This document shows, piece by piece, positions 1,475-13,950 of a DNA stretch of 23,365 nucleotides. The notes beneath the pieces were generated by a model. The model was not told where the DNA came from. It was given only the letters and a program-made list of their open reading frames with translations, and did no database searches. Numbering within the stretch: the first letter of the stretch is position 1; each line of letters starts with the position of its first letter. The DNA is from a virus, in IMG/VR virus record IMGVR_UViG_3300048580_000366, positions 1 through 23,365 of that record; one strand, written 5' to 3'. Position numbers and translations under genes: made by a program.

Positions 1475-3280
1475 TTACGCGGCCAGCTTTGTCGTCATGC
1501 CTACGCGCAAGGTGTGGTCGGAGATTCGCCGGCAGATGGCCAGGAAGCTCGCCTCGTTGTAGAGCTTGGCGTTCTTTTCGGTGGTCGCCTCGAAGCCGAG
1601 CGAGGCGAGGAATTCAGCCGACACCGTGTAGCCAAGGCGGGTGCAGATTTCACCGAGCTTGATCTTCGGTAGGCAAGCATCGGCAGGCAGCGCAATGCGC
1701 GCGCCGAGAACGGGCTGCGGAATTTCGTCAGCGATGGCGGCCGGTTGTTGCTCACTGGCGATAGACAAAGCCGGTTGTGTCTCAGATTTCGGCTTTTCTT
1801 CAACACAAGCGGCAGGCTTCTCGATCTGCGGCTGATTGCTGGCGACAGCCTGGGCATTCCGGCGGGCCAGTTCTTCGGCTTCGCGTTGCGCCTTTTCAGC
1901 CTCAAGCCGTGCTTTTGCAGCCGCCGTTTCCTGCTCGGCATTGATCCGGGCGATTTCTTCCTGGCGGATTCGTTCGCGCTCGGCTTCCAGTCGCTTGGCT
2001 TCCTTTTCCTTGTGCTGCGACACGCGGGACATCAGCAGGGCGGTGAAATCGTCCTTGGCCTTGGCGCAGACGGAAGCCAGATCCGGAAACAGGAACCGCC
2101 AGTCGAATCCTTCGCCTTCGAGGGTCTTGATGTTGTACTCGATGCGGTCGGCAATCTCGCTGGTGGCAATCTTGCAGCGGGCCAGTTCGGCATCCACCTT
2201 TTCGCGCATGGAGTCGAGCGACTTCAGGCCTTTGACGGCGCCGCCAAAGTTGCTTTCAAAGGGGGGCATGTAGCCGCCGATACGGTCATTGAGCGCCCGC
2301 CAGTAGTCGCCCATGGCGTCAGCGCCAGCGCGCACGATGTCTTCCTTGCGCCGGTCTTTTTCCTCGGTGATCTTCTTGTCGAGCGCCTTGCGCACGTCGC
2401 CGGCCATCTTGGCAACTTCATCCAGGGCGCGATGTAGTTCGGCAATGCTGGTCGTCTGGTCAAGGGCGTTCTGCTTGGCGCGCTTGGCGTTGTCCTCAAC
2501 GTCCTTGAGGTACTTCACGGCCGCCGAGGCGTCGACAAAATCCTGATCGGTGACGAGCTCAGTCTTGATGCTGGAGATCACGGCATTGGCCGCAGCCTTG
2601 AATTCAACCAGATTGCTGTGGGTGACGCGGCCGGTGACTTCGACAACCAGGGCCGGCAGGTTGTTGATCGGATTGGCGGTCAGGATCGGCTTGGCTTCGA
2701 TGACTTCGGGCTGGTAGTTGCGCACGTCTTCATCGAACTGCTTCCACACCGGGCGAATAGCCGCCTTGGCTTCGGCGCTCGGGTAGTACCAGCAATAGAC
2801 GCAGTTTTCGGGCGTGCCATCCGTAACCATAAACAGGATGCTTTCAAAGCCGAAAACTTCGCCTTGCTGGTCAAGCTGTCCAACGTGTGTCTTGGGAACG
2901 ATTCCGTTGGCGACGGACTCGGCAAGTTCAGCGTTCCACTGCTTGCACTCCCATCCCTTATCCATAAGCATGGTTGCGCCATCAGAACTGGCGCCGAGAT
3001 AGCCATCATCTGAAGTAGCAACCAGCGGATACAGGTCTTCCCCGATGATCATTTCTGCCATCGGCCTGGCCAGTTCTTCTACTCGGTGGCCATTGGCAAG
3101 AATTTTCTCTTGCCAATCGGTGAACTCAGGCTCGATACCAGTCGCGGCTTCGCGGACCAGTTTGGAGCGCGACCGGGTTTTGCTCAAGCCCTGAGCTACC
3201 GGGTAGTCGCTGGCGTTGTGCGTCGTCTTGCGATGCGCTTTCCATCCTTCCGTTCCTTGGGCGTGGTCGATGATGATCAT
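1475..3280 (-). CDS. YqaJ-type viral recombinase/exonuclease with a coiled-coil C-terminal extension
   Basis: The 601-residue product begins with a YqaJ-like PD-(D/E)XK nuclease domain (about residues 1-200). Motifs seen are 'ASDYPVAQGLSKTRSRSKL', an 'NGHRVEELARP' helix, and the core 'YLGASSDG' followed by 'WECKQWN', which supply the Asp and Glu-x-Lys of the active site. Family members are alkaline 5'-3' exonucleases acting with a single-strand annealing protein. Residues 260-420 form a helical DUF1351-like region, then comes a charged coiled coil (AKRLEAERERIRQEE onward) and a conserved-looking C-terminal domain. YqaJ nucleases alone are typically about 200-330 residues, so this is an extended or fused form. 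The ATG at 3280 has GGAG 7 nt upstream; the ATG at 3286 would overlap the previous stop but has poor spacing. Confidence 0.85.
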   Translation of the reverse strand: MIIIDHAQGTEGWKAHRKTTHNASDYPVAQGLSKTRSRSKLVREAATGIEPEFTDWQEKILANGHRVEELARPMAEMIIGEDLYPLVATSDDGYLGASSDGATMLMDKGWECKQWNAELAESVANGIVPKTHVGQLDQQGEVFGFESILFMVTDGTPENCVYCWYYPSAEAKAAIRPVWKQFDEDVRNYQPEVIEAKPILTANPINNLPALVVEVTGRVTHSNLVEFKAAANAVISSIKTELVTDQDFVDASAAVKYLKDVEDNAKRAKQNALDQTTSIAELHRALDEVAKMAGDVRKALDKKITEEKDRRKEDIVRAGADAMGDYWRALNDRIGGYMPPFESNFGGAVKGLKSLDSMREKVDAELARCKIATSEIADRIEYNIKTLEGEGFDWRFLFPDLASVCAKAKDDFTALLMSRVSQHKEKEAKRLEAERERIRQEEIARINAEQETAAAKARLEAEKAQREAEELARRNAQAVASNQPQIEKPAACVEEKPKSETQPALSIASEQQPAAIADEIPQPVLGARIALPADACLPKIKLGEICTRLGYTVSAEFLASLGFEATTEKNAKLYNEASFLAICRRISDHTLRVGMTTKLAA

Positions 3281-3282
3281 GG

Positions 3283-4251
3283 TCATTCTCCGTAATTGAC
3301 GGCCAAATCTTCGATGGCCAGTTTCTGGTTGTCGGTCAGGACGTACTTGGTCAGCGTCGTCGAAATGATCTGCGCCGGCTTCAGCTTCCCGGCCTTGACC
3401 GCTTCTCGCCACTTGGGAAGTTCGAGGTTGAACTTGTCGGCGGGCATTTCGGGCAGGGCTTCGGGCTTCTTCGGCTCGGCCGGCTTCGTTTGCTTGGCTG
3501 CGCCGTCATCGGCAGCGAAAGCCTGCTCGGGCGTGGTGTCGCCTTCCTTGAGCGCAGTGATCAGGCCGCGCAGGGTGACGAGGTGATCAAGGCCGATGTC
3601 AGCAGCGCCTTCCACGCCCAGCTTGGCGAAAACCTGCTCTTGCGTGACGCCGTAGGCAACCAATGCCTTCAGGGCGTCGGCCCGGCGATTGGCCAGTGTC
3701 GAGAAGTCACCCATGACGACGGCGCGTGCGGCCTGGTACATGTCGTCCCAGAAGGCTTTCGGCACCCCTTTGAGGATGGCATTGCGCAGGGCAATCGACG
3801 ACGCGGCATTGCCGGTGACGCCGATCATGTCGGCATTGAAACGGCGATTGTTCTTGTCGGTGATGCGGCGCTGTACCTCGTAGGTGATGGCGACGTTGCG
3901 TTCAAGGTCGTGAAAGACGCCTTGCGCGGTGATGAAGTCGCCAGCATCCGAGACGACGCGGGCGCCGGCCCGGCAGTTGCCCCAGGCCGAGGCGACGACT
4001 TCGGCAAAGCGGGCGCTCGGCCCTTCGATGGTCTTGTTGCCACGCGGCAGGGCATAGATACAGGACTCAGCGACGGATTCATTGAGCGTCACCATCTGCA
4101 AAGCTTCCTGGCGGAAGCGCTTAATGGAGCGCGGGAACTTGTGAGCAGTGGCTACCTGCATGTCGATTTCACTGCGGTTGAGCAGAGCGACGGTGCCGCC
4201 TTCCACGGACATGGCCGAGACTTCCCGGCCGTCTTCGTATTGGTCGTTCAT
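3283..4251 (-). CDS. Phage protein paired with the YqaJ exonuclease; candidate single-strand annealing protein
   Basis: The 322-residue product starts MNDQYEDGREVSAMSVEGG and has a conserved-looking core: 'RSIKRFRQEALQMVTLNESVAESCIYALPR', 'IEGPSARFAEVVASAWGN', and 'VTGNAASSIALRNAILKGVPKAFW'. These match a family common in proteobacterial phages just upstream of exonuclease genes. Position and co-translation with the YqaJ gene (stop at 3283-3285 within a few bases of the next start) suggest a RecT/Erf-like annealing role, but I see no diagnostic RecT motif, so this is inference. The C-terminal 110 residues after a Lys/Pro/Glu-rich linker may be a separate protein-binding domain. GAGG lies 5 nt before the ATG. 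Confidence 0.75.
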   Translation of the reverse strand: MNDQYEDGREVSAMSVEGGTVALLNRSEIDMQVATAHKFPRSIKRFRQEALQMVTLNESVAESCIYALPRGNKTIEGPSARFAEVVASAWGNCRAGARVVSDAGDFITAQGVFHDLERNVAITYEVQRRITDKNNRRFNADMIGVTGNAASSIALRNAILKGVPKAFWDDMYQAARAVVMGDFSTLANRRADALKALVAYGVTQEQVFAKLGVEGAADIGLDHLVTLRGLITALKEGDTTPEQAFAADDGAAKQTKPAEPKKPEALPEMPADKFNLELPKWREAVKAGKLKPAQIISTTLTKYVLTDNQKLAIEDLAVNYGE

Positions 4252-4271
4252 GATTTCCTCTTGGAAGTTAT

Positions 4272-4490
4272 TCAGGCCAGGCGCCAGGTTCGGCGATGAC
4301 CAACGGGAAGCAGCGAATTGAGGGCCGAGCGGAGCCGCGTCCGCTCACGGCGGGCGATGCTCCGGGCAATCTCAATGCGGAATTGGAGGACAGGATCGCC
4401 AATGCAGGCGAGCGCTTCGGTCTGTCCGGCGATGGTGATGTCCAGGGCGTAAATCTGGAACATCAGGATCAGGCGTTTGATGCTTTTCAT
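4272..4490 (-). CDS. Small basic phage protein, first gene of the recombination operon
   Basis: The 72-residue product (MKSIKRLILMFQIYALDI...) has a hydrophobic N-terminal helix and a basic C-terminal half rich in Arg ('ARSIARRERTRLRSALN'). I recognise the general look from betaproteobacterial prophages, where it is annotated as hypothetical. The ATG at 4490 is chosen because GGAGG lies 8 nt upstream; an upstream in-frame ATG at 4568 would lie at the promoter and has no ribosome site. It is the first gene after the promoter at 4540-4568. Function unknown. Confidence 0.7.
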   Translation of the reverse strand: MKSIKRLILMFQIYALDITIAGQTEALACIGDPVLQFRIEIARSIARRERTRLRSALNSLLPVGHRRTWRLA

Positions 4491-4539
4491 GTGATCGACC
4501 TCCGTTGTCGATGGGATGCAATGCGCATCCCGTATGACA

Positions 4540-4568
4540 ACTATAGAAGATTGATTAACGGAAAGCAA
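4540..4568 (-). promoter_or_regulatory. Sigma70-type promoter of the recombination operon with overlapping operator
   Basis: On the minus strand TTGCTT (plus 4563-4568) and TATAGT (plus 4540-4545) are separated by exactly 17 bp. The -35 box overlaps one copy of the 8-mer GCAATCAC (4565-4572), and an imperfect partner TTAATCA lies inside the spacer. This arrangement fits repression by the adjacent HTH regulator. The transcript would run to 1 and beyond. Confidence 0.75.
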
Positions 4569-4580
4569 TCACCTTGATGC

Positions 4581-4603
4581 AAAAAAATCCCGGTCATCCG
4601 GGC
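4581..4603 (-). terminator. Rho-independent terminator of the regulator unit
   Basis: The minus-strand reading is CCCGG-ATGA-CCGGG followed by ATTTTTTT: a 5-bp GC stem, 4-nt loop and seven T. The hairpin overlaps the last codons and stop of the gene at 4594-4824, so it ends the repressor transcript just before the next minus-strand promoter. Confidence 0.8.
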
Positions 4604-4824
4604 GATTGCTGCACGGTAGGCAATCTCCCAAATTCTTTACTAAGGCGCTGCCGTGCGGTCGTGCGAATCACTGACGCCAGCAGGACAAGCTGGCGGGCAA
4701 TGTGGTCGGCGTAGCCGGCATCAAACTCGCCGGCCGCGACAGTAGAGAGCTTCCCGTCTTCGAGAAGCGATACGCCAAAAAATGCGATTGATGGCGGTGT
4801 TGGTGACTGGTTTCCATTGTTCAT
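4594..4824 (-). CDS. Small phage protein co-transcribed with the regulator
   Basis: The 76-residue product (MNNGNQSPTPPSIAFFGVSL...) has a Pro/Ser-rich start, a short beta-like segment and a helical C-terminal half ('YADHIARQLVLLASVIRTTARQRL'). I do not recognise the family. The ATG at 4824 is preferred because AGGGGG lies 5 nt upstream; in-frame ATGs at 4866 and 4863 lack a ribosome site. It lies 74 bp downstream of the regulator gene and ends inside the terminator hairpin, so it belongs to the repressor transcript. Confidence 0.6.
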   Translation of the reverse strand: MNNGNQSPTPPSIAFFGVSLLEDGKLSTVAAGEFDAGYADHIARQLVLLASVIRTTARQRLSKEFGRLPTVQQSPG

Positions 4825-4898
4825 TGCTGCCCCCTTGGGTTGTTTAGGTTTGTATTCGTTCATCATATTGAATATATCCAATCTGGTTGTGAGAAAAA

Positions 4899-5303
4899 TC
4901 ACGAACTGATGTCTTTAGGGTCGATCACGATTCCAATGCCGGTTTTCTGTGCGGGCAGCTTCATGCTTCGTCCGGCCAGCCATTCAGCTATTGCCAGGAC
5001 GAGTTCTTTGTCGGTGTCGGGGGCGTTGGCGAGAACGGCGCAAAGCTGCGACAGGTAGGGGTCTTCGTTGCCCAATTGTTTCGGCGGCGGGGTATCGAGC
5101 GAACCGGGGTTCAGGCCAAAAGCGGTTTCGATCATAGTGGCCATTCGGTTCCCGATATTGCGCTGTGGATTGGGGCCGGCAATCTGGGTGATGTAGCTGT
5201 TCTTCTTGCCCATGATTCTGGCGGCTTCGTTGGTTCCATCAACACTTCGGATGATTTGCCGGAAATTCCACAGCCTGTTTTTTTGTATTTCTTCGTTGTT
5301 CAT
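4899..5303 (-). CDS. Cro/CI-like helix-turn-helix transcriptional regulator
   Basis: The 134-residue product carries an N-terminal XRE/Cro-type DNA-binding fold: 'LWNFRQIIRSVDGTNEAARIMGKKNSYITQIAGP', with the turn and recognition helix around residues 22-40, then 'RNIGNRMATMIETAFGL' and 'PGSLD', a usual end of such HTH domains. The C-terminal part is short ('QLCAVLANAPDTDKELVLAIAEWL') and helical, likely for dimerisation. No LexA/S24 autopeptidase domain is present, so RecA-driven self-cleavage is not expected. GGAGG lies 5 nt before the ATG at 5303. It faces the replication genes across the divergent control region and is the best candidate to bind the GCAATCAC sites. Confidence 0.8.
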   Translation of the reverse strand: MNNEEIQKNRLWNFRQIIRSVDGTNEAARIMGKKNSYITQIAGPNPQRNIGNRMATMIETAFGLNPGSLDTPPPKQLGNEDPYLSQLCAVLANAPDTDKELVLAIAEWLAGRSMKLPAQKTGIGIVIDPKDISS

Positions 5304-6473: not shown

Positions 6474-7246
6474 TGGCAATGAATGACATCGTGAAGGCTA
6501 TTGCCGTGACGGCAGAACTTACCGGGGCCAGCTTGTCGGGTCCGGCGGTGGCGACAATGGCCAAGGATCTGACGGCGCAGCACCGGGAGGAAGCCATCCT
6601 GCGTGCACTGACGCGCTGCCGAAAGGAGTTGTCTAGGCCGCTGACGGCCGGGGCTGTGTTCGAGCGACTGGCCGAGGATGACGGTAGGCCATCTGGTGAT
6701 GAGGCGTGGGCGATCGCTCTGCAATCGTCCGATGAAGCGGAAACCGTTGTCTGGAATGGCGAGATTCAGAAGGCGATGGCGGCAGCGCGGCCGATCCTTG
6801 ATGCTGGCGACAAGATCGGCGCCCGCATGGCGTTCCGTGAAGCATACGAGCGGATTGTCCGGAACAATCGGGAGGCCGGAATCATGCCTACATGGGAGGC
6901 TTCGCTCGGGTGGGACAAGGAGCGCAGGGCATTGGCTATCGAATCGGCTCATAGCCTCGGGCTGCTGTCTGCGCCGCAGGTTGTTGCGCTGCTGCCGTCG
7001 CCGACTTCTGAGGGTTTCGTCGAGTCGGCTTTGTTCGGCAGCGGAAAGATCGAGATTCCGGCCGACGATGCGGAGCGGGTGACGCGCTGGATTGCGCAGA
7101 TCAAGGCTGATCTGAAGCGGGCGCAGGCCGAGAAGTCGGCGCGGCGTGAAGCCGAGGCCATGGCGCAGCGCAAAGACCTGGCCGAACGCAAGCGCCGGGC
7201 GGCCGAATTGGTCGACGCCGGAATCAAAAAGCGCGCCGGCCAGTGA
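6473..7246 (+). CDS. Phage protein, possible replication partner
   Basis: The 257-residue product starts MAMNDIVKAIAVTAEL. Its N-terminal third ('ATMAKDLTAQHREEAILRALTRCRKEL', 'LTAGAVFERLAEDDGRPSGDEAWAIA') resembles a segment found in phage replication proteins that follow an O-like initiator. The C-terminus is a long charged helix ('KADLKRAQAEKSARREAEAMAQRKD'). The start overlaps the previous stop by one base (TAATG), showing translational coupling. The position matches lambda P (helicase loader), but no ATPase or DnaC motif is visible, so that role is only suggested. The stop codon sits within one arm of a perfect inverted repeat (7243-7268). Confidence 0.6.
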   Translation: MAMNDIVKAIAVTAELTGASLSGPAVATMAKDLTAQHREEAILRALTRCRKELSRPLTAGAVFERLAEDDGRPSGDEAWAIALQSSDEAETVVWNGEIQKAMAAARPILDAGDKIGARMAFREAYERIVRNNREAGIMPTWEASLGWDKERRALAIESAHSLGLLSAPQVVALLPSPTSEGFVESALFGSGKIEIPADDAERVTRWIAQIKADLKRAQAEKSARREAEAMAQRKDLAERKRRAAELVDAGIKKRAGQ

Positions 7247-7268
7247 TTGCCTAACGATGAGCAATCAC
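7243..7268. repeat. Perfect inverted repeat across a stop/start junction, operator candidate
   Basis: GTGATTGC (7243-7250) and GCAATCAC (7261-7268) are exact complements separated by 10 bp. The left arm contains the stop codon of the upstream gene and the right arm is part of codons 2-4 of the next gene. The same 8-mer occurs in predicted promoters at 4565 and 13915. It could bind the phage regulator or form an RNA hairpin hiding the next start codon. Confidence 0.5.
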
Positions 7269-7436
7269 AAATCCAGGCTTCCGACGTTGAAAGAGGCCAT
7301 CGAGATCGTCACCAACTGCATCGACCTCCGGGAGCAGGGCCGGCAACTGTCGTTCATGCGGGAAACGCAGGGCGAGGAATACGCCCAGCAGGTCCATGAC
7401 AAGGTGAAGGCGGCCGGCGGGGTGAAGAAGAAATGA
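7257..7436 (+). CDS. Small phage protein, unknown function
   Basis: The 59-residue product (MSNHKSRLPTLKEAIEIV...) is hydrophilic and helical, with a Lys-rich end. It begins 10 nt after the previous stop and ends in an ATGA overlap with the next gene, so it is part of one operon. No good Shine-Dalgarno is seen; the start lies between the arms of the inverted repeat at 7243-7268, which may limit its translation. I do not recognise the family. Confidence 0.65.
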   Translation: MSNHKSRLPTLKEAIEIVTNCIDLREQGRQLSFMRETQGEEYAQQVHDKVKAAGGVKKK

Positions 7437-7951
7437 GCCGCGTCACGATCCTGCGCACGAACGAGCCTTTCCCAGCGGAAAGCATCCTGGCGGGCGTGCG
7501 CAACTTCCTGTTCGGCATCTTCGATGGCTGGCGCAACGACGACAAGAAGGGATGGCGCCGGATCTGGAAGCGCTTGATCGATCTGGAGCCCGGAGAATTC
7601 GCGGTGATCGAGTTCGTGATACCGCGATCGACGCCGGCCCATCGCCGGCACATGAAGATCATCAGCGATGTTTTCGACGGCCAGGAGCGATTCGAGGATT
7701 TCGACCAGTTCTGGATCTGGCTGAAGGTCGGCGCCGGCTGGGTGGATTGGTGCGCTGGCCCGAAGGGCGGCGTGGTGCCGATTCCCAAGAGCATCAGCTA
7801 CGCCAAGGCTGACCAACACGAATTCGAGCAGTACCACGCCAAGGTAATGGCGTTTCTTCGCGGGCCGCATGCCGCTGCTTTCCTGTGGAAGCACTTGGGC
7901 AACGACGCGCATTGGTCGATGGATGCAATTCTTTCGGAGTTCGGAGAATGA
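7433..7951 (+). CDS. DUF1367-like phage protein
   Basis: The 172-residue product matches the pattern of DUF1367 phage proteins: the 'RRIWKRLIDLEPGEFAVIEF' segment, 'TPAHRRHMKIISDVFD' and 'FWIWLKVGAGWVDWCAGPKG', then the diagnostic 'PKSISYAKADQHEFEQYHAKVMAFL' block. Members lie in early or nin-like regions of lambdoid phages and are thought to act in DNA metabolism; the biochemical role is not established to my knowledge. It overlaps both neighbours by 4 nt, and the frame choice is supported by the ATGA couplings. Confidence 0.75.
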   Translation: MSRVTILRTNEPFPAESILAGVRNFLFGIFDGWRNDDKKGWRRIWKRLIDLEPGEFAVIEFVIPRSTPAHRRHMKIISDVFDGQERFEDFDQFWIWLKVGAGWVDWCAGPKGGVVPIPKSISYAKADQHEFEQYHAKVMAFLRGPHAAAFLWKHLGNDAHWSMDAILSEFGE

Positions 7952-8247
7952 AGATAGCCCAGCATCCAACGGCGTGCGATGCCTTCCACGCCAACAGCGA
8001 AAACGGCCTGGCCAGCGGCCAGCGCAACACGATTCTGCGCTTCATCGAGACGGCCGGCGGTTCGTGGTCGATCGGCGAACTGGCCGATGCGCTCGGGATG
8101 CAGAAAAGCACGGTCAGCGCCCGGCTGAATGAAATGCTGCACGACTTCGGAATGCTGATTGAAAAGCCGAAGCGCAAGGACCGATTGAGCAATATCACGA
8201 TTCGGCCCGTTGGGTTGCCGGCGAAGCAACTGGAGTTGCTGCAATGA
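7948..8247 (+). CDS. Winged-helix/HTH phage protein
   Basis: The 99-residue product has a clear winged-helix reading: 'RNTILRFIETAGGSWSIGELADALGMQKSTVSARLNEM' (helices 1-3, recognition helix at QKSTVSARL) and a wing ('GMLIEKPKRKDRLSNITIRPV'). It could be a DNA-binding regulator or an adaptor for DNA processing. The ATG at 7948 overlaps the previous stop (ATGA), with GGAG close upstream; a longer frame exists but would overlap the previous gene deeply. The next gene also overlaps by 4 nt. Confidence 0.7.
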   Translation: MKIAQHPTACDAFHANSENGLASGQRNTILRFIETAGGSWSIGELADALGMQKSTVSARLNEMLHDFGMLIEKPKRKDRLSNITIRPVGLPAKQLELLQ

Positions 8248-8732
8248 GCATGGGCGGACATCAAAGTGCTGCGATGCTCAAGGATGAATGGCTGACGCCG
8301 CCGCATATCCAGCAGGCGCTGGGCAGCTTCGATCTTGATCCTTGCGCGCCGATCAATCGTCCATGGGATACCGCGAACTGCCACTACACCATTTCCGATG
8401 ACGGATTGAAGCAGGAATGGTTCGGCCGCGTCTTTTGTAACCCGCCGTATGGCCTTGAGGCGGCAACCTGGCTTGATCGATTGGCCAGCCACGGCAATGG
8501 TATCGCGCTGATCTTCGCGCGCACCGAGACGCGCATGTTCTTCGACCACGTATGGCGCCGGGCAGACGCCGTTCTGTTCATCGAAGGGCGGCTGCACTTC
8601 CACCACGTCGACGGCACGCGTGCCAAGGCGAACGCCGGGGCGCCGTCGTGCTTGATCGCCTACGGAAAATACAACGCGCACACGCTGATGGATTGCGGCC
8701 TTGGCCATTTTGTAAGGCTGGACGGCCAATGA
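8244..8732 (+). CDS. Phage DNA N-6-adenine methyltransferase (Dam-type)
   Basis: The 162-residue product fits the phage Dam family (PF05869 type). It contains 'DEWLTPPHIQQALGSFDLDPCA' near the start, the catalytic 'FCNPPYG' (NPPY motif IV) around residue 63, and 'FARTETRMFFDHVWRRADAVLFIEGRLHF' in the second half. It should transfer methyl from S-adenosylmethionine to adenine N6 in DNA, protecting phage DNA from host restriction or timing replication. The length is near the usual 160-180. GGAG lies 8 nt before the ATG, and the gene overlaps both neighbours by 4 nt. Confidence 0.9.
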   Translation: MSMGGHQSAAMLKDEWLTPPHIQQALGSFDLDPCAPINRPWDTANCHYTISDDGLKQEWFGRVFCNPPYGLEAATWLDRLASHGNGIALIFARTETRMFFDHVWRRADAVLFIEGRLHFHHVDGTRAKANAGAPSCLIAYGKYNAHTLMDCGLGHFVRLDGQ

Positions 8733-8878
8733 ACCTCGAATACCAGATCGAGCAGCACGCCGTTCTTCTTGAGCGCTGGTTTTCTCCTGAGAAGGCGAGG
8801 CGCGAAGCCAGGCGCCGGGTGTCGGCTGGGCAGTGCTGGAAGTGGCCGGAGCCGGTGCAGATGGAGTTGTTCGCATGA
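8729..8878 (+). CDS. Very small phage protein, unknown function
   Basis: The 49-residue product (MNLEYQIEQHAVLLERWFSP...) is helical and basic, with 'EKARREARRRV' in the middle and a 'PVQMELF' tail. Start and stop overlap the neighbouring genes by 4 nt (ATGA at both ends), which is the main support that it is real. It might be a small DNA- or protein-binding factor; nothing more can be said. Confidence 0.6.
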   Translation: MNLEYQIEQHAVLLERWFSPEKARREARRRVSAGQCWKWPEPVQMELFA

Positions 8879-9117
8879 TTCATGCACCGAACCAATCATC
8901 GGTCTGGAAATTGATGGATGACGCGAAGAGAGGTCTCCTACCCGGTATGCGTGTTCAATGCTCATTGTTCGGGCGGGTGTATCCGGTGCGGAGCCATGCG
9001 GGGGAGTTAGTCGGCGAAATCCCCGCATGGTTGCAGCGTGAGGCGCGAAATCACGGATTCATGGTTATTGGCGCTGACTGGCGAGGCGGCAAATACACGT
9101 TTGAGATATTGCCATGA
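8875..9117 (+). CDS. Small phage protein, unknown function
   Basis: The 80-residue product starts MIHAPNQSSVWKLMDDAKRG and ends 'GADWRGGKYTFEILP'. The region 'GRVYPVRSHAGELVGEIPAWLQREARNHGF' could be a compact alpha/beta fold. The ATG at 8875 has GGAG 8 nt upstream and overlaps the previous stop (ATGA); its own stop overlaps the next start. It resembles hypothetical proteins placed before phage nuclease genes, but I do not recognise a named family. Confidence 0.6.
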   Translation: MIHAPNQSSVWKLMDDAKRGLLPGMRVQCSLFGRVYPVRSHAGELVGEIPAWLQREARNHGFMVIGADWRGGKYTFEILP

Positions 9118-9461
9118 TCGCAAAGCGCCGCCCATACCGCAACCGCAAGCTGCTGGATCTAGCCCACCAGATCAATGAATGCCAGGTGCGCATTCCGGGA
9201 GTGTGTATTGGCTACTCGGTTGAAGGATGTGAACCGGCCCATTCGAATCAACATATTCACGGCAAGAGCGCTGGGCAGAAGGCCGACGATAACTATCACG
9301 TCGCAGCCTGCCACCAGTGCCATGTAGCCATCGACCAAGGGCCGATGCCGAGAGCCGATAAGGTAAGGCTGTGGGATGCGGCATTCGAGCGCACCAGGGC
9401 GCTGTACATCAAACGGTTCAACATTGATTTGGAGGCGTGCGTAAATGCTGCGCTGGTCTGA
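9114..9461 (+). CDS. DUF1364-type phage nuclease (HNH-like)
   Basis: The 115-residue product matches the DUF1364 phage pattern: 'INECQVRIPGVCIGY' (paired Cys), 'EPAHSNQHIHGKSAGQKADDNYHVAACHQCHVAIDQGP' with His and the C-x-x-C-H zinc/His-Me finger layout, and a helical end. HNH-like nucleases of this family are found in nin-like regions near RusA or recombination genes and presumably cut branched or double-stranded DNA. It overlaps the previous gene by 4 nt and the next by 17 nt. Confidence 0.8.
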   Translation: MIAKRRPYRNRKLLDLAHQINECQVRIPGVCIGYSVEGCEPAHSNQHIHGKSAGQKADDNYHVAACHQCHVAIDQGPMPRADKVRLWDAAFERTRALYIKRFNIDLEACVNAALV

Positions 9462-9912
9462 GGAACAACTGCGCGAGCATCACGCCAAGCGCCAGGGTAG
9501 GGCAGCGGCCAAGGCCGAGGCGAAGGCGCACCAGATCGATCAGCCGAGATCGAAGCACCGCAACAAACGATGCGAGATCAGCGGCGAGAAGTTCGACAGC
9601 AAGGCCGAGGGCGCGCGCTTCGTTCAGCTTCGCCGGATGCAGGAGGCCGGGATTATCTCCAACCTGCGCCGCCAGGTTTCGTTCGAGCTGGCGCCGGCGG
9701 TGAAGATACCCGGCAAGGGGCGGATGTCGCCGCCGCTGCGATACTTCGCCGACTTCACCTACGAACAGGACGGGAAGACGGTCATCGAGGACGTGAAGGG
9801 CCAGGAGAAAGTGACCGAGGGATTCCGCATTAAGCGGCACTTGATGGCGCTGCTCGGGCATCAGATTATCGAGGTCAGAAAATCCCGTACCCGGAAATCC
9901 AATCCTGTGTAG
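9445..9912 (+). CDS. DUF1064 phage protein, PD-(D/E)XK-like nuclease
   Basis: The 155-residue product has the DUF1064 layout: a basic N-terminus, 'KFDSKAEGARFVQLRRMQEAG' (Ser-x-x-Glu helix), 'ISNLRRQVSFELAP', then 'RYFADFTYEQDG' and 'TVIEDVKGQ', giving the D...E-x-x-K pattern of an endonuclease fold (Asp in ADF, Glu/Asp-Val-Lys). This family often replaces RusA-like resolvases at the end of phage early operons. GGAGG lies 9 nt before the ATG. It is the last gene of the rightward early operon, followed by tandem hairpins. Confidence 0.8.
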   Translation: MLRWSEEQLREHHAKRQGRAAAKAEAKAHQIDQPRSKHRNKRCEISGEKFDSKAEGARFVQLRRMQEAGIISNLRRQVSFELAPAVKIPGKGRMSPPLRYFADFTYEQDGKTVIEDVKGQEKVTEGFRIKRHLMALLGHQIIEVRKSRTRKSNPV

Positions 9913-9929
9913 AATTTCCCCTGCTTGAC

Positions 9930-10020
9930 CGGAGCGCGGCCGGACTCCGAAGGCATCCTGGCCTTCCGCGCAAGGAAAGAATAAGCCCGCCAAGCGCGGG
10001 CTTAGTCTTGTCCTGTTTCT
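9930..10020 (+). terminator. Tandem hairpins ending the rightward early operon
   Basis: Three consecutive hairpins follow the DUF1064 gene: CGGAG/CTCCG (9930-9949), GAAGGC/GCCTTC (9949-9966) and a strong 9-bp TAAGCCCGC-CAAGC-GCGGGCTTA (9982-10004). The last is followed by a pyrimidine-rich stretch (TCTTGTCCTGTTTCTCCTG) in place of a perfect U-tract. On the minus strand the same stem is followed by TTCTTTCC, so it may also stop the leftward transcript coming through the cassette array. Confidence 0.6.
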
Positions 10021-10121: not shown

Positions 10122-10141
10122 CAGGTGTCGTCTACTTCGCG

Positions 10142-10369
10142 TTAGGTGCCGGCCTTCTTGCCAAGTAGCATCGGCTCGGGGCCATCTTTTCCGCCCAGCA
10201 GTTGCACAAGCATTCGCAGCCCATCTGCACACTCGCGCAATCCTTGGCGGCGTCCGTGCGCCTCGGCGTTTCGTGCCGTAGCTTCCGGTGATCCGTCTTC
10301 GCATTGCGGCGGCGTCGCGTCGTACTCCCACTTGGCCGCCAGTTCAACAAGTACTGCATCTTTCATCAT
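10142..10369 (-). CDS. Cassette 1 gene: small phage-like protein
   Basis: The 75-residue product (MMKDAVLVELAAKWEYDA...) has the pattern 'ELAAKWE...SPEATARNAE...RQGLRECADGLRMLVQLLG', which I recognise as a type of small helical protein common in phage accessory regions, function unknown. GAAGG lies 4 nt before the first of two ATGs. The stop TAA is the complement of the TTA at the cassette border (10142-10144), so the gene fills the cassette exactly. It is antisense to the attC direction. Overlapping frames of similar length have no ribosome site. Confidence 0.7.
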   Translation of the reverse strand: MMKDAVLVELAAKWEYDATPPQCEDGSPEATARNAEAHGRRQGLRECADGLRMLVQLLGGKDGPEPMLLGKKAGT

Positions 10370-10395
10370 GGTTCCTTCCGTGTTTAAAAATCGTC

Positions 10396-10483
10396 ACCTA
10401 ACTGTGCCTTCAACCGGACGCGGTGAACCTGCGTCCTTCGCAATTACTACTCGTCGCCGCGCTCGGTTAAGGCGGCGTTAGAT
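10396..10483 (+). repeat. attC site 1 (88 bp)
   Basis: Core boxes are ACCTAAC (10396-10402) and GTTAGAT (10477-10483). Inner boxes GCCTT-C-AACC (10406-10415) and GGTTAAGGC (10465-10473) pair perfectly except for an unpaired C at 10411. This extra base in the left inner box sets the polarity as plus. The left half is nearly identical to attC sites 3 and 5. Confidence 0.88.
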
Positions 10484-10693
10484 TTCGCTGCTGCCCACGT
10501 CGGTATGCACGTCGCACACAATCTTCCAGTCGCGCTGGTCGTTCTTGGCTTTGGCAAGTTGCAGTAGCGTAATGGCCGCGCCAATGTCGCTACACTCGTT
10601 GCCGAAAGTGTTGTTGTCCATCCCGCCTTCGGTCGGCTCGAAATATTGCACGCTGAATGTAACTGTGTGCGTCGTTACGCTCTTGATCTTCAT
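10478..10693 (-). CDS. Cassette 2 gene: hypothetical protein
   Basis: The 71-residue product (MKIKSVTTHTVTFSVQYFEP...) looks like an alpha/beta protein: two beta strands first, then 'ECSDIGAAITLLQLAKAKND' as a helix and 'DWKIVCDVHTDVG' as a strand. I do not recognise a family. GGAG lies 6 nt before the ATG at 10693, only about 20 nt from the core box of attC 2. The stop TAA is made by the core box GTTAGAT of attC 1 (10478-10480). Like its neighbours it runs against the attC polarity. Confidence 0.68.
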   Translation of the reverse strand: MKIKSVTTHTVTFSVQYFEPTEGGMDNNTFGNECSDIGAAITLLQLAKAKNDQRDWKIVCDVHTDVGSSEI

Positions 10694-10712
10694 ATTTTTC
10701 TCCAAAGTAAAA

Positions 10713-10771
10713 TCTAACTTTTCAATCAACCAGACCGGCTAGACGCCGGCTGGTTATCTCAGGCGTTATAC
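10713..10771 (+). repeat. attC site 2 (59 bp, short type)
   Basis: Core boxes are ATCTAAC (10713-10719) and GTTATAC (10765-10771). The arms AT-C-AACCAG (10726-10734) and CTGGTTAT (10750-10757) pair with C10728 unpaired. The stem continues as CCGGC/GCCGG (10736-10740 and 10745-10749) with a 4-nt loop. The position of the extra C again gives plus polarity. Confidence 0.88.
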
Positions 10772-10775
10772 GTCG

Positions 10776-10967
10776 CTACCATGAACGCAGCACAACCTGT
10801 TTCCCGCAGCGCGGGCAGTCAATCCACTCCTTGCCGTCTGATCCTCCGGAGTAGTCTTTGCCGTGGTATTCCTTCACCTCGGACGGCGTGTATTCCAGCA
10901 CGGCTGCGCAATTCCGGCAGGTCGTCCGCTTCACGGCTTGCGGGTCGTTTCCAACAATCTGAACCAT
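10776..10967 (-). CDS. Cassette 3 gene: zinc-ribbon protein
   Basis: The 63-residue product has two C-x-x-C pairs, 'CRNCAAVLEYTP' near residue 17 and 'DCPRCGKQVVL' near the C-terminus, forming a probable zinc ribbon. A Gly/Lys/Asp-rich loop ('EYHGKDYSGGSDGKEW') lies between them. Small zinc-ribbon proteins of this sort are frequent among phage accessory genes and usually bind nucleic acid or protein. GGAG is 6 nt before the ATG at 10967; a TTG at 10979 is an unlikely alternative. The stop lies 10 bp inside the cassette border. Confidence 0.72.
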   Translation of the reverse strand: MVQIVGNDPQAVKRTTCRNCAAVLEYTPSEVKEYHGKDYSGGSDGKEWIDCPRCGKQVVLRSW

Positions 10968-10987
10968 CGTGTTCTCCAAAAATCAAC

Positions 10988-11075
10988 GTATAACTGTGCC
11001 TTCAACCGGACGCGGTGAAACGCCGGTCGTTTCCTCAACCATCAGTCGCCGCGCCCGGTTAAGGCGGCGTTGTGC
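10988..11075 (+). repeat. attC site 3 (88 bp)
   Basis: Core boxes are GTATAAC (10988-10994) and GTTGTGC (11069-11075). The arms GCCTT-C-AACC (10998-11007) and GGTTAAGGC (11057-11065) pair with C11003 unpaired. It has the same length as attC 1 and nearly the same inner arms, while the central loop differs. Polarity is plus. Confidence 0.87.
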
Positions 11076-11377
11076 GTCACGTCACGGCAGCGAATGCTTC
11101 TCGCGCCAAGCAGAGCGCGCTCGCCCTTGTGGTTTTTCAGTTCCACCCATGCTCTGTCGCCCTCAAGCGCGACCACAGTTGCCGGGTACCAGTACATTTG
11201 CCTTGCGCGAGCACGGCGAACACACACGCTAACCGTGCTTCCAACCGTCACGGAATCTTGTCGGCCATCGTGTCCATACGTCAGCAGGTTCAGCGAGTGC
11301 CGCACAACATTGCGGTCAACGCGACCGTTCGCGGCAATAGCAGCCGTGCCTTCGTTTTTCTTTCGTTCGCCGCTCAC
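11042..11377 (-). CDS. Cassette 4 gene: Tudor/SH3-like small protein
   Basis: The 111-residue product contains 'TVGSTVSVCVRRARARQMYWYPATVVALEGDRAWVELKN', which reads as a beta-barrel of Tudor or SH3 type (V-x-V-R...WYPATVV...AWVEL). The likely start is the GTG at 11377, overlapping the previous gene's stop (GTGA) with GGAGG 9 nt upstream. That start lies inside attC 5, so about 25 N-terminal residues come from attC sequence; a later start is possible. The C-terminus also runs about 9 codons into attC 3. Function unknown. Confidence 0.6.
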   Translation of the reverse strand: MSGERKKNEGTAAIAANGRVDRNVVRHSLNLLTYGHDGRQDSVTVGSTVSVCVRRARARQMYWYPATVVALEGDRAWVELKNHKGERALLGARSIRCRDVTHNAALTGRGD

Positions 11378-11401
11378 GTCGCGTTACCTCCAGCGTTAGA
11401 G
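11302..11401 (+). repeat. attC site 4 (100 bp)
   Basis: Core boxes are GCACAAC (11302-11308) and GTTAGAG (11395-11401). The arms GGT-C-AACGCGAC (11314-11325) and GTCGCGTTACC (11378-11388) pair perfectly apart from C11317. Although its sequence differs from sites 1 and 3, the layout is the same, which argues for structure-based selection. Polarity is plus. Confidence 0.87.
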
Positions 11402-11598
11402 CGCGCTTCCGCATGGCACTCGTAATCGTGTTCGCATCGCGTGCAGTTCTGCCCAACGTTATCGCCTTCGAACTTGTCGCACACCGGCGGCAGGTTGTAC
11501 GGGTCGCCCCATTCGTTTGCGTCGCAAATGCACCCGTCCGGCCGTTTCACTTCTGGTTCAATTCGTTCCCCGCAGTGCGGGCAGTGGGTAATGCTCAT
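11374..11598 (-). CDS. Cassette 5 gene: cysteine-rich zinc-binding protein
   Basis: The 74-residue product has 'HCPHCGERIEPEV' at the start, 'GCICDANEW' and 'NCTRCEHDYECH' further on, making at least two candidate zinc sites. GGAGGAAAGA directly precedes the ATG, the best ribosome site in the array. The start codon overlaps the stop of the upstream open frame (ATGA). The last eight or so residues are read from attC 4 because the frame misses the TAA in the core box. It is the cassette gene nearest to the phage operon and probably the first expressed. Function is unknown. Confidence 0.7.
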   Translation of the reverse strand: MSITHCPHCGERIEPEVKRPDGCICDANEWGDPYNLPPVCDKFEGDNVGQNCTRCEHDYECHAEARSNAGGNAT

Positions 11599-11720
11599 TC
11601 TTTCCTCCGTAAAAAGTGCGCTCTAACTGTGCCTTCAACGGCGACCGCCCTTACGGGCGGCGCATCATCTGGCGGGTATCCAGCATGCCGCTCGAAGTGT
11701 TCTTCTTCTCGGCGGGTCAT
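11595..11720 (-). CDS. Chimeric 41-residue open frame spanning the phage/cassette junction
   Basis: The frame starts MTRREEEHFERHAGYPPDD, overlapping the upstream gene's stop (ATGA), and then reads through the truncated attC half into a stop that overlaps the start of the cassette 5 gene. The first 22 residues look like the N-terminus of a native small phage gene; the rest derives from attC sequence. It would couple translation from the phage operon into the cassettes. It may be a remnant and not a functional protein. Confidence 0.5.
   Translation of the reverse strand: MTRREEEHFERHAGYPPDDAPPVRAVAVEGTVRAHFLRRKE
11620..11655 (+). repeat. attC site 5, left half only
   Basis: GCTCTAAC (11620-11627) followed by TGTGCCTTCAACGG matches the left halves of attC sites 1 and 3, including the extra-C context TTCAAC. 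GACCGCCC-TTAC-GGGCGG then folds back. The expected right half (a GGTTAAGGC-like box and GTTAGAGC) is missing, and the sequence passes into a phage gene. Confidence 0.75.
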
Positions 11721-12172
11721 GTCGAACCTCCGAATTCCTTGGCTTGGGCAAGTTGTTCGTCCGTCATCCGGTCATGTTGTCCGATGCCGAGTAGCTTGCG
11801 GATAGGCTGTCCGATGTGACTGCTGCCGCCTTGATGGTGCCATAGCGTCCAGAGCAATGCGGATTCCATCTGCTGCAGCTTCGGGTGATGCTCGATGCAG
11901 TCGGCGTCCGGATCAATGCACTCGTTCGACGGATCGCAGACAACGGCCATGCCAATGATGACGCGGCCAATACTGCCGCGATTAAGGAGGCGCTTGAGGT
12001 TTTCGATCAGGCGTTCGTATTGCTCGTTGTCGTCGGTATCAATCCACTCGGTCGATTCTGATTCATGATCGCTGAATCGGTACGGGAAGTAGCCCCTTTC
12101 GATGTCGTCGAGAACGCTGATCAGATCCAGCGCCATGTCGATGTCGGCCTGTGAGGCTTTGGCCATTTTCAC
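11717..12172 (-). CDS. Acidic phage protein, unknown function
   Basis: The 151-residue product is acidic and helical: 'SQADIDMALDLISVLDDIERGYFPYRF', 'ERLIENLKRLLNRGSIGRVIIGMAVVCDPSNECIDPDADC' and a C-terminal 'WTLWHHQGGSSHIGQPIRKLLGIGQHDRM'. The last part resembles the tail of phage proteins such as the Ea22/accessory group, but I cannot name a family. Start may be the GTG at 12172 (AGG 7 nt upstream, overlapping the previous stop) or the ATG at 12166. Its stop overlaps the chimeric frame at the cassette junction. Confidence 0.65.
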   Translation of the reverse strand: MKMAKASQADIDMALDLISVLDDIERGYFPYRFSDHESESTEWIDTDDNEQYERLIENLKRLLNRGSIGRVIIGMAVVCDPSNECIDPDADCIEHHPKLQQMESALLWTLWHHQGGSSHIGQPIRKLLGIGQHDRMTDEQLAQAKEFGGST

Positions 12173-12558
12173 GGCGCCACCTCTTCGCCAAGGCTGCCGG
12201 CCGGGTAAAAGATGATGGCCGGTATAGTGGTTTCGTTTTCTGCCGATTTATCCGGATGACCGTAGCTTTTTGCGCTGGCGATGGCGGCTCTGGCTTCGCT
12301 GACGGCTTCCCGTGTCCCGATGTCGTCGCCGTGGTCGCGCATCCACGCCGACAATTCCTTGCGGCATTTCTCAAGAGCCGCCAGCAGATCGTCGCGCTGC
12401 TTCCGAATATTGGATACGCGCAAATCAGGATCATCGCCCAGAACGGCCCGCACTCGGCCAATGAAATCCTCTTTCGATTCGTGCCGGTAGGTGCAGAGCC
12501 CGGCGATGGCCCGGATCGTCTCGGCCATGGCGTCCGCTTTGTCTTGTAGGGTGGTCAC
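12169..12558 (-). CDS. Phage accessory protein with coiled coil
   Basis: The 129-residue product has a central helix suited to coiled-coil formation ('VSNIRKQRDDLLAALEKCRKELSAWMRDHGD'), preceded by 'TYRHESKEDFIGRVRAVLGDDPDLR' and ended by 'GSLGEEVAP'. Such 'RDDLLAALEKC' segments are common in phage accessory proteins of unknown function. The start is a GTG at 12558 overlapping the previous stop (GTGA), with GAGG 9 nt upstream. The stop overlaps the next start as well. Confidence 0.65.
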   Translation of the reverse strand: MTTLQDKADAMAETIRAIAGLCTYRHESKEDFIGRVRAVLGDDPDLRVSNIRKQRDDLLAALEKCRKELSAWMRDHGDDIGTREAVSEARAAIASAKSYGHPDKSAENETTIPAIIFYPAGSLGEEVAP

Positions 12559-13900: not shown

Positions 13901-13930
13901 TTGATGTTCAGTAAGCAATCACAGTATAGC
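13901..13930 (+). promoter_or_regulatory. Possible weak promoter for the packaging module
   Basis: TTGATG (13901-13906) and TATAGC (13925-13930) are separated by 18 bp, with the GCAATCAC motif inside the spacer. It is weaker than the leftward promoter on the other strand, with which it overlaps. Late phage genes may need an activator or antiterminator, so this is a tentative call. Confidence 0.35.
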
Positions 13931-13950
13931 AAACGGGTAAATTATGGCAA
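13915..13950 (-). promoter_or_regulatory. Promoter of the leftward accessory operon with operator motif
   Basis: On the minus strand TTGCCA (plus 13945-13950) and TATACT (plus 13923-13928) are separated by 16 bp, each one base from consensus. The 8-mer GCAATCAC (13915-13922) directly follows the -10 box, at the start site. The -35 box overlaps the start codon of the rightward gene at 13944. The transcript would run through the accessory genes and into the cassette array. Confidence 0.7.

Follow-up and report, generated by a model that had tools for sequence, protein, structure and literature searches.

Integrons are bacterial gene-capture platforms, and the polarity of their attC sites ensures that the captured cassettes are expressed from the Pc promoter. 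Which strand of an attC site is recombined depends on its first extrahelical base, and this dependence secures the expression of captured genes (Bouvier et al. 2009, PMC2727003). In phages, Qi et al. (2023, PMC9892861) reported 17 CALINs, that is, attC clusters without intI, in 10,705 genomes and found that five of six tested phage attC sites recombine with IntI1 and attI1. Captured integrons are also known from temperate phages and phage-plasmids, namely, Vibrio p16, P1 (L-II), and Shewanella M16-3, in which they are described as host-derived fragments, some of them with intI (PMC9892861). Phage attC sites, phage CALINs, and their recombination by IntI1 are thus already published; the new part of the present work is a reversal of polarity. 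We saw no mention of gene-versus-attC polarity in the report by Qi et al. (PMC9892861), and we found no account of reversed polarity, of phage-specific integrons, or of IntI in hundreds of viral contigs in the literature covered by our search, which excluded most subscription journals and all bioRxiv preprints.

The DNA analyzed here, referred to as the window, is a viral record of 23,365 bases, derived from a metagenome and not named in PMC9892861, that resembles the CALINs of TJE1, PH101, P12002L, and Myoviridae MW202573 (PMC9892861) in carrying an attC cluster without intI in a phage genome. It belongs to a temperate-looking tailed phage whose large terminase shares 57 to 66% identity with those of the best-matching named phages, with the Burkholderia phages DC1, JC1, and BcepIL02 at the top, and it is a genome fragment, since relatives measure about 60 kb. 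Apart from portal and major head proteins, it encodes a small terminase, a RecE-like exonuclease, a protein of a Holliday junction resolvase family, and a repressor-like gene. The attC array is located between two converging operons (Table 1). The operon that carries it lies on the minus strand, with its first gene near 13.9 kb and a terminator-like hairpin near 9.98 kb; the promoter-like site at its head is a weak candidate, the consensus scan having returned 3 sites against 2.0 expected.

Table 1. Array of the window and flanking operon features (positions in the 23,365-base window; a slash marks the recombination cut).
Feature	Position	Strand	Evidence or remark
Terminator-like hairpin, directly after the array	9982-10004	-	Inverted repeat I3; brackets the 3' end of the operon
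Left-end junction GCG/TTAGGTG (R'-type)	10139-10148	+	Direct reading; attI-like or first insertion point
Cassette gene 1, 75 aa	10142-10369	-	RBS GGAAGGA, ATG, stop in core TAAC
attC1	10396-10483	+	Covariance model, 25.9 bits; fold z -2.5
Cassette gene 2, 71 aa	10478-10693	-	RBS GGAG, ATG, stop TAA in TCTAAC
attC2	10712-10771	+	Covariance model, 36.6 bits; fold z -4.4
Cassette gene 3, 63 aa, zinc-ribbon-like	10776-10967	-	phrog_2834, E 1.4e-16
attC3	10988-11075	+	Covariance model, 27.9 bits; fold z -3.8
Cassette gene 4, start uncertain	11042-11377	-	ORF and codon score; weakest of the five genes
attC4	11302-11401 or 11402	+	Covariance model, 32.4 bits; fold z -1.8
Cassette gene 5, 74 aa, CxxC zinc-ribbon-like	11374-11598	-	RBS GGAGGA, ATG; codon score
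attC5, truncated: R'', L'' with extra C, extrahelical A, hairpin CCGCCC-TTAC-GGGCGG	about 11621-11663	+	Direct reading
Gene of the same operon, upstream of the array; may once have been a cassette	11717-12172	-	Homologues in IntI-bearing viral contigs L412 and L392
Promoter-like site TTGCCA, 16 nt, TATACT, extended -10; head of the minus strand operon	13923-13950	-	Consensus scan, weak

To assess the identity of the attC sites, a covariance model was derived from 24 bacterial examples whose orientation was set by their intI. In the window, this model matched exactly four sites (25.9 to 36.6 bits, E values of 1e-6 to 3e-4), all on the plus strand, while the next-best match reached only 10.8 bits. 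A generic finder, combining the pattern RYYYAAC...GTTRRRY with complementary inner arms, returned the same four sites and no others over the 23,365 bases, whereas first-order Markov shuffles of the window contained 0.43 sites on average and never more than 2. Both methods thus placed the four complete sites within 1 nt of where a preliminary description, made from the letters alone, had put them. Folded as plus strand DNA, three of the four sites were clearly better than shuffles, whereas attC4 was only weakly so. The half site it had noticed from position 11620 on turned out to be a truncated attC, the start of which repeats that of attC1 and attC3 and which breaks off in L', with L'-R' lost.

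The window thus displays R''-L''-L'-R' boxes, complementary arms, and extrahelical bases in a bottom-strand hairpin, with four complete sites lying within about 1 kb and one truncated site. No integron integrase was detected by a TIGR02249 search of the 23 kb record, the remaining genome lying outside it, so that of a complete integron (intI, attI, and array) only the array and an attI-like junction are present. This junction, at the left end, was absent from the preliminary description; it is cut at 10141/10142 and contains the stop codon of cassette gene 1, and in type it resembles the attI-like end GACTAG/TTAGGC of another viral contig, L195. Taken together, these data show that the window holds a genuine integron-style array of five cassettes. 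Rfam at gathering thresholds gave no match in the window. An exact scan for CCGGTTGAAGGCACAGTTA yielded a single viral-contig match (L002, AT-rich and apparently due to chance) and no match in bacterial genomes, so the source host of the window attC sites was not found.

We then considered the direction of the cassette genes relative to their attC sites. In 111 of 132 bacterial attC sites linked to intI, bulged bases (mostly C, then A) occurred in the left top-strand arm alone, and in all four complete window sites the C bulge is on the plus strand. The gene layout had initially suggested that the minus strand is the attC top strand, an idea ruled out by the position of the bulge and by the covariance model. 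The genes themselves read from the minus strand: genes 1, 2, 3, and 5 each have a ribosome-binding site ahead of the start, and the codon scores favor this strand (17.3 versus 1.4 for gene 2). Gene 4 has a GTG near 11300, just inside its cassette. Gene 1 has a homologue (46% amino acid identity) in the unrelated phage contig L217, where it forms a reversed cassette with an attC site on either side, gene 3 has homologues in 113 phage records with identities of up to 54%, and for gene 5 none was found in named phages. Since the attC sites lie on the plus strand according to bulge and model, and the genes on the minus strand according to ribosome-binding sites, codon scores, and homologues, all five cassette genes are antisense to their attC. 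As the preliminary description had it, each small frame corresponds to one cassette, within a phage and in a record without integrase; what it had missed is that the unpaired C marks an attC polarity opposite to that of the genes. Sedentary chromosomal integrons (Burkholderiales and other Gammaproteobacteria) share with the window the attC sequence, structure, and left-arm bulges, but their genes are sense to attC and point away from intI under Pc, whereas those of the window are antisense and point toward the insertion end. The window genes are thus not in the sense orientation that makes a bacterial cassette expressible by Pc; instead, they run antisense to attC in an array that closes a phage operon at its 3' end.

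The window is not isolated in this respect. Viral loci were collected from IMG/VR with one family of attC patterns (Burkholderiales/Xanthomonadales-like): a whole-attC pattern returned at least 120 contigs, and a second pattern returned 16 stretches, two of them overlapping the earlier set. Attachment sites of this kind, said in the preliminary description to be rarely described in phages, are rare in the literature, as the count of Qi et al. (PMC9892861) shows, but not in IMG/VR, where this one narrow pattern sufficed to find them in such numbers. The covariance model recognized 324 sites in the first 80 viral loci. Antisense intervals outnumbered sense ones by 85 to 4 in the first viral set (42:4 loci) and by 62 to 11 in the second (25:2 loci), giving 147 antisense and 15 sense cassettes on about 130 array-bearing viral contigs besides the window; IMG/VR contigs can include host DNA, and the one terminase family used was present on 24 of 53 searched records. 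Bacterial arrays analyzed with the same code showed 53 sense versus 5 antisense intervals (21:3 loci), and a second bacterial control, found by the model alone, showed 15 versus 0, the difference between viral and bacterial polarity being significant both by interval (Fisher P = 4e-31) and by locus (P = 5e-13). A random polarity, with genes simply following the phage operon, would predict about half of the arrays to be sense and is ruled out by the 67:6 loci. About 1 in 10 bacterial cassettes also has an antisense gene (L151, L152, L161, L176, and L178).

Antisense open reading frames (ORFs) in viral arrays matched 75 PHROG and 14 Pfam families, compared to 2 and 0 for sense ORFs, and the reversal is therefore independent of the strand choice of the gene caller. 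The families matched on antisense ORFs include DNA methyltransferases, Lar-type restriction alleviation, Mom, RNA ligase, and NinX; the viral cassette cargo is rich in DNA methyltransferases and antirestriction genes (Lar and Mom). Genes flanking the viral arrays upstream were codirectional with the cassettes in 230 of 247 cases, and those on the attI side in 202 of 312. Among the described phage CALINs, MW202573 is reversed like the window, with annotated genes on the plus strand and attC sites on the minus strand, whereas TJE1, an isolated virulent phage with recombination-competent attC, has genes and attC in the same direction and is a counterexample. One viral locus, L281, is exceptional in having six sense cassettes and may be of host origin or belong to a phage in which the ordinary layout applies. 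Because TJE1 and a few viral loci such as L281 are sense, the reversal in viral arrays is a strong rule but not a law.

Closer to the window itself, no relatives were found via the gene at 12169-12558, and no close relative of the window locus was found. In most of the other terminase relatives the array is absent, and L009 gave only one weak, truncated edge match. A second phage of the same terminase family, L011 (IMGVR_UViG_3300028841_000043), has an array of its own upstream of terL (positions 1600 to 5000), with five attC matches on the minus strand and genes on the plus strand; L010 and L011 are 100% identical and represent one phage, and this contig pair was therefore counted once.

Traces of cassette exchange were seen when viral contigs were compared with each other. 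L188 and L195 share 99.97% identity over 7,183 bases and diverge exactly at the G/TTAGGC cut, with AACG/TTAGGC (attC) in one and ACTAG/TTAGGC (attI-like) in the other, a difference that we read as a cassette insertion beside an attI-like site. This attI-like sequence, ...AAAGTTGGCATATCGACTAG/TTAGGC, occupies the insertion end of an array in a phage without intI (L195, positions 7129 to 7249). Within arrays, 56 of 217 alignment (HSP) ends fell within 20 nt of a cut, i.e., 26% versus 6% by chance. Single cassettes are common to otherwise unrelated contigs, and L250 and L253 carry the same cassette joined to different attC sites. The window takes part in this sharing: besides the L217 counterpart of gene 1, the gene at 11717-12172 has a homologue in L392 that adjoins attC sites, and the same IntI-bearing contig contains a site similar to attC4 (91% over 35 nt). 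The cassette variation in relatives anticipated by the preliminary description was thus encountered as arrays of the same kind with breakpoints at the attC cut, not in a close relative of the window locus.

Integron integrases were found on viral contigs as well. IntI exceeded the curated cutoff in 5 of 53 searched records, nearly all of them array bearing, and a scan with viral IntI queries detected IntI relatives in at least 220 viral contigs. In the best 80 of these (L348 to L426), with gene direction callable in about 20, the array lies upstream of intI, as in any integron, and the genes read toward intI (27:5 reversed); genes upstream of viral intI are almost all on the intI strand. In G703, for instance, the order is methyltransferase, cassettes, intI, phage integrase, and then a converging tail-fiber operon. 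The G703 IntI is 64% identical to the nearest bacterial IntI among 369 genomes and 77 to 100% identical to its nearest viral relatives; it is 45 to 57% identical to those of p16, P1 L-II, and M16-3, from which it also differs in being encoded in a phage operon beside a phage integrase. When 69 viral and 64 bacterial IntI were placed in one tree, for which the bacteria came from a single class and the viral sequences had been picked for their resemblance to viral queries, the viral label required 5 changes versus 44.5 by chance, two of them forced by supported branches. Viral IntI thus appear to cluster apart from the sampled bacterial IntI. A single viral clade was not borne out, as the tree needs five label changes and the G720 IntI nests among bacterial ones. 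Two further loci deserve mention: in L392 (positions 6500 to 9950), attC sites of one polarity flank the viral intI on both sides, and in the named virus Rctr41k (L427, KX853513), an IntI is annotated as xerD, a loose finder saw two attC-like sites, and the covariance model gave no match. The preliminary description had considered a host integrase acting in trans; this is possible, but since many phages carry their own IntI, it is only one of the options.

We consider that, with a probability of roughly 0.7, the window array belongs to a type of integron adapted to phages, in which cassettes lengthen a phage operon at its 3' side, and that the corresponding integrase is either missing or encoded outside the fragment. 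According to this model, the insertion end, i.e., the attI-like junction, would coincide with the downstream end of the minus strand operon. An integrase supplied by another phage, by the missing part of the genome, or by the host would recombine the folded bottom strand, here the minus strand, and would thereby add or remove cassettes at the array. Transcription would reach the cassettes by read-through from the upstream phage promoter toward the insertion end, without involvement of a Pc promoter reading away from it. Because expression would come from this phage promoter and not from Pc, the cassette genes would have to be antisense to attC, and only antisense-gene cassettes would therefore be expressed and kept. 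A bacterial Pc would leave phage cassettes silent, and bacterial cassettes would likewise be silent here; the phage pool, shared among phages, would therefore be largely separate and orientation locked. The truncated attC at the end of the window array speaks against this reading, as the array may be decaying.

The preliminary description favored a host origin, and an ordinary CALIN, taken up by the phage as a segment of a host chromosomal integron and then either carried along or used with the host IntI, would fit both the match of the window attC sequences to models trained on bacterial sites and the precedents of p16, P1, and M16-3. A captured array would, however, stay sense, whereas all five window cassettes are antisense, an orientation that is rare in bacteria (5 of 58 called intervals and 0 of 15 in the second control); in addition, the L'-R' sequence of the window attC is without an exact match in bacterial genome contigs, and gene 3 belongs to a phage protein family. 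With bacterial genes following attC polarity, phage genes opposing it, and a phage-type cargo, we regard acquisition from a host integron as unlikely. It is more doubtful still that the sites are mere hairpins, acting as terminators or mRNA structures and left from past recombination, with no present mobility in the window phage. The truncated attC5, the lack of intI in the record, and the attC4 fold, only slightly better than shuffles, would agree with such remnants, but in four of the five sites the two core boxes, the two inner arms, and the extrahelical C are preserved, and a pure terminator role would leave unexplained a polarity common to unrelated phages, which makes this the least probable of the alternatives.

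A further explanation concerns the reason for the reversal. Bottom strands of chromosomal integrons are usually on the leading-strand template, which avoids cassette loss (PMC11551772). The reversed layout puts the recombining strand on the coding (nontemplate) strand; exposure of that strand during transcription or lagging-strand replication may raise cassette turnover. Selection for turnover is compatible with the presence of the required geometry in all reversed arrays and with breakpoints that indicate cassette turnover. As the operon model accounts for the same facts without it, and the two are compatible, we think it quite improbable that turnover was what selected the reversal. Returning to the phage-adapted integron, we lean, somewhat less firmly than for the window itself, toward the broader view that aquatic and environmental tailed phages carry an integron class of their own, with their own IntI lineages, an orientation-locked pool of small and counter-restriction genes, expression from phage operons, and exchange among unrelated phages, of which the window would be an intI-less member.

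The near-universal reversal in the phage arrays checked points to a version of the integron that phages operate themselves. If this is true, phages would own a dedicated site-specific system for swapping accessory and antirestriction genes, and reversed phage integrons would provide a concrete mechanism for part of phage mosaicism. Since phage operon genes are found as attC-tagged units, phage arrays also bear on the question of cassette origin, and the rare reversed cassettes of bacteria might then derive from those of phages.
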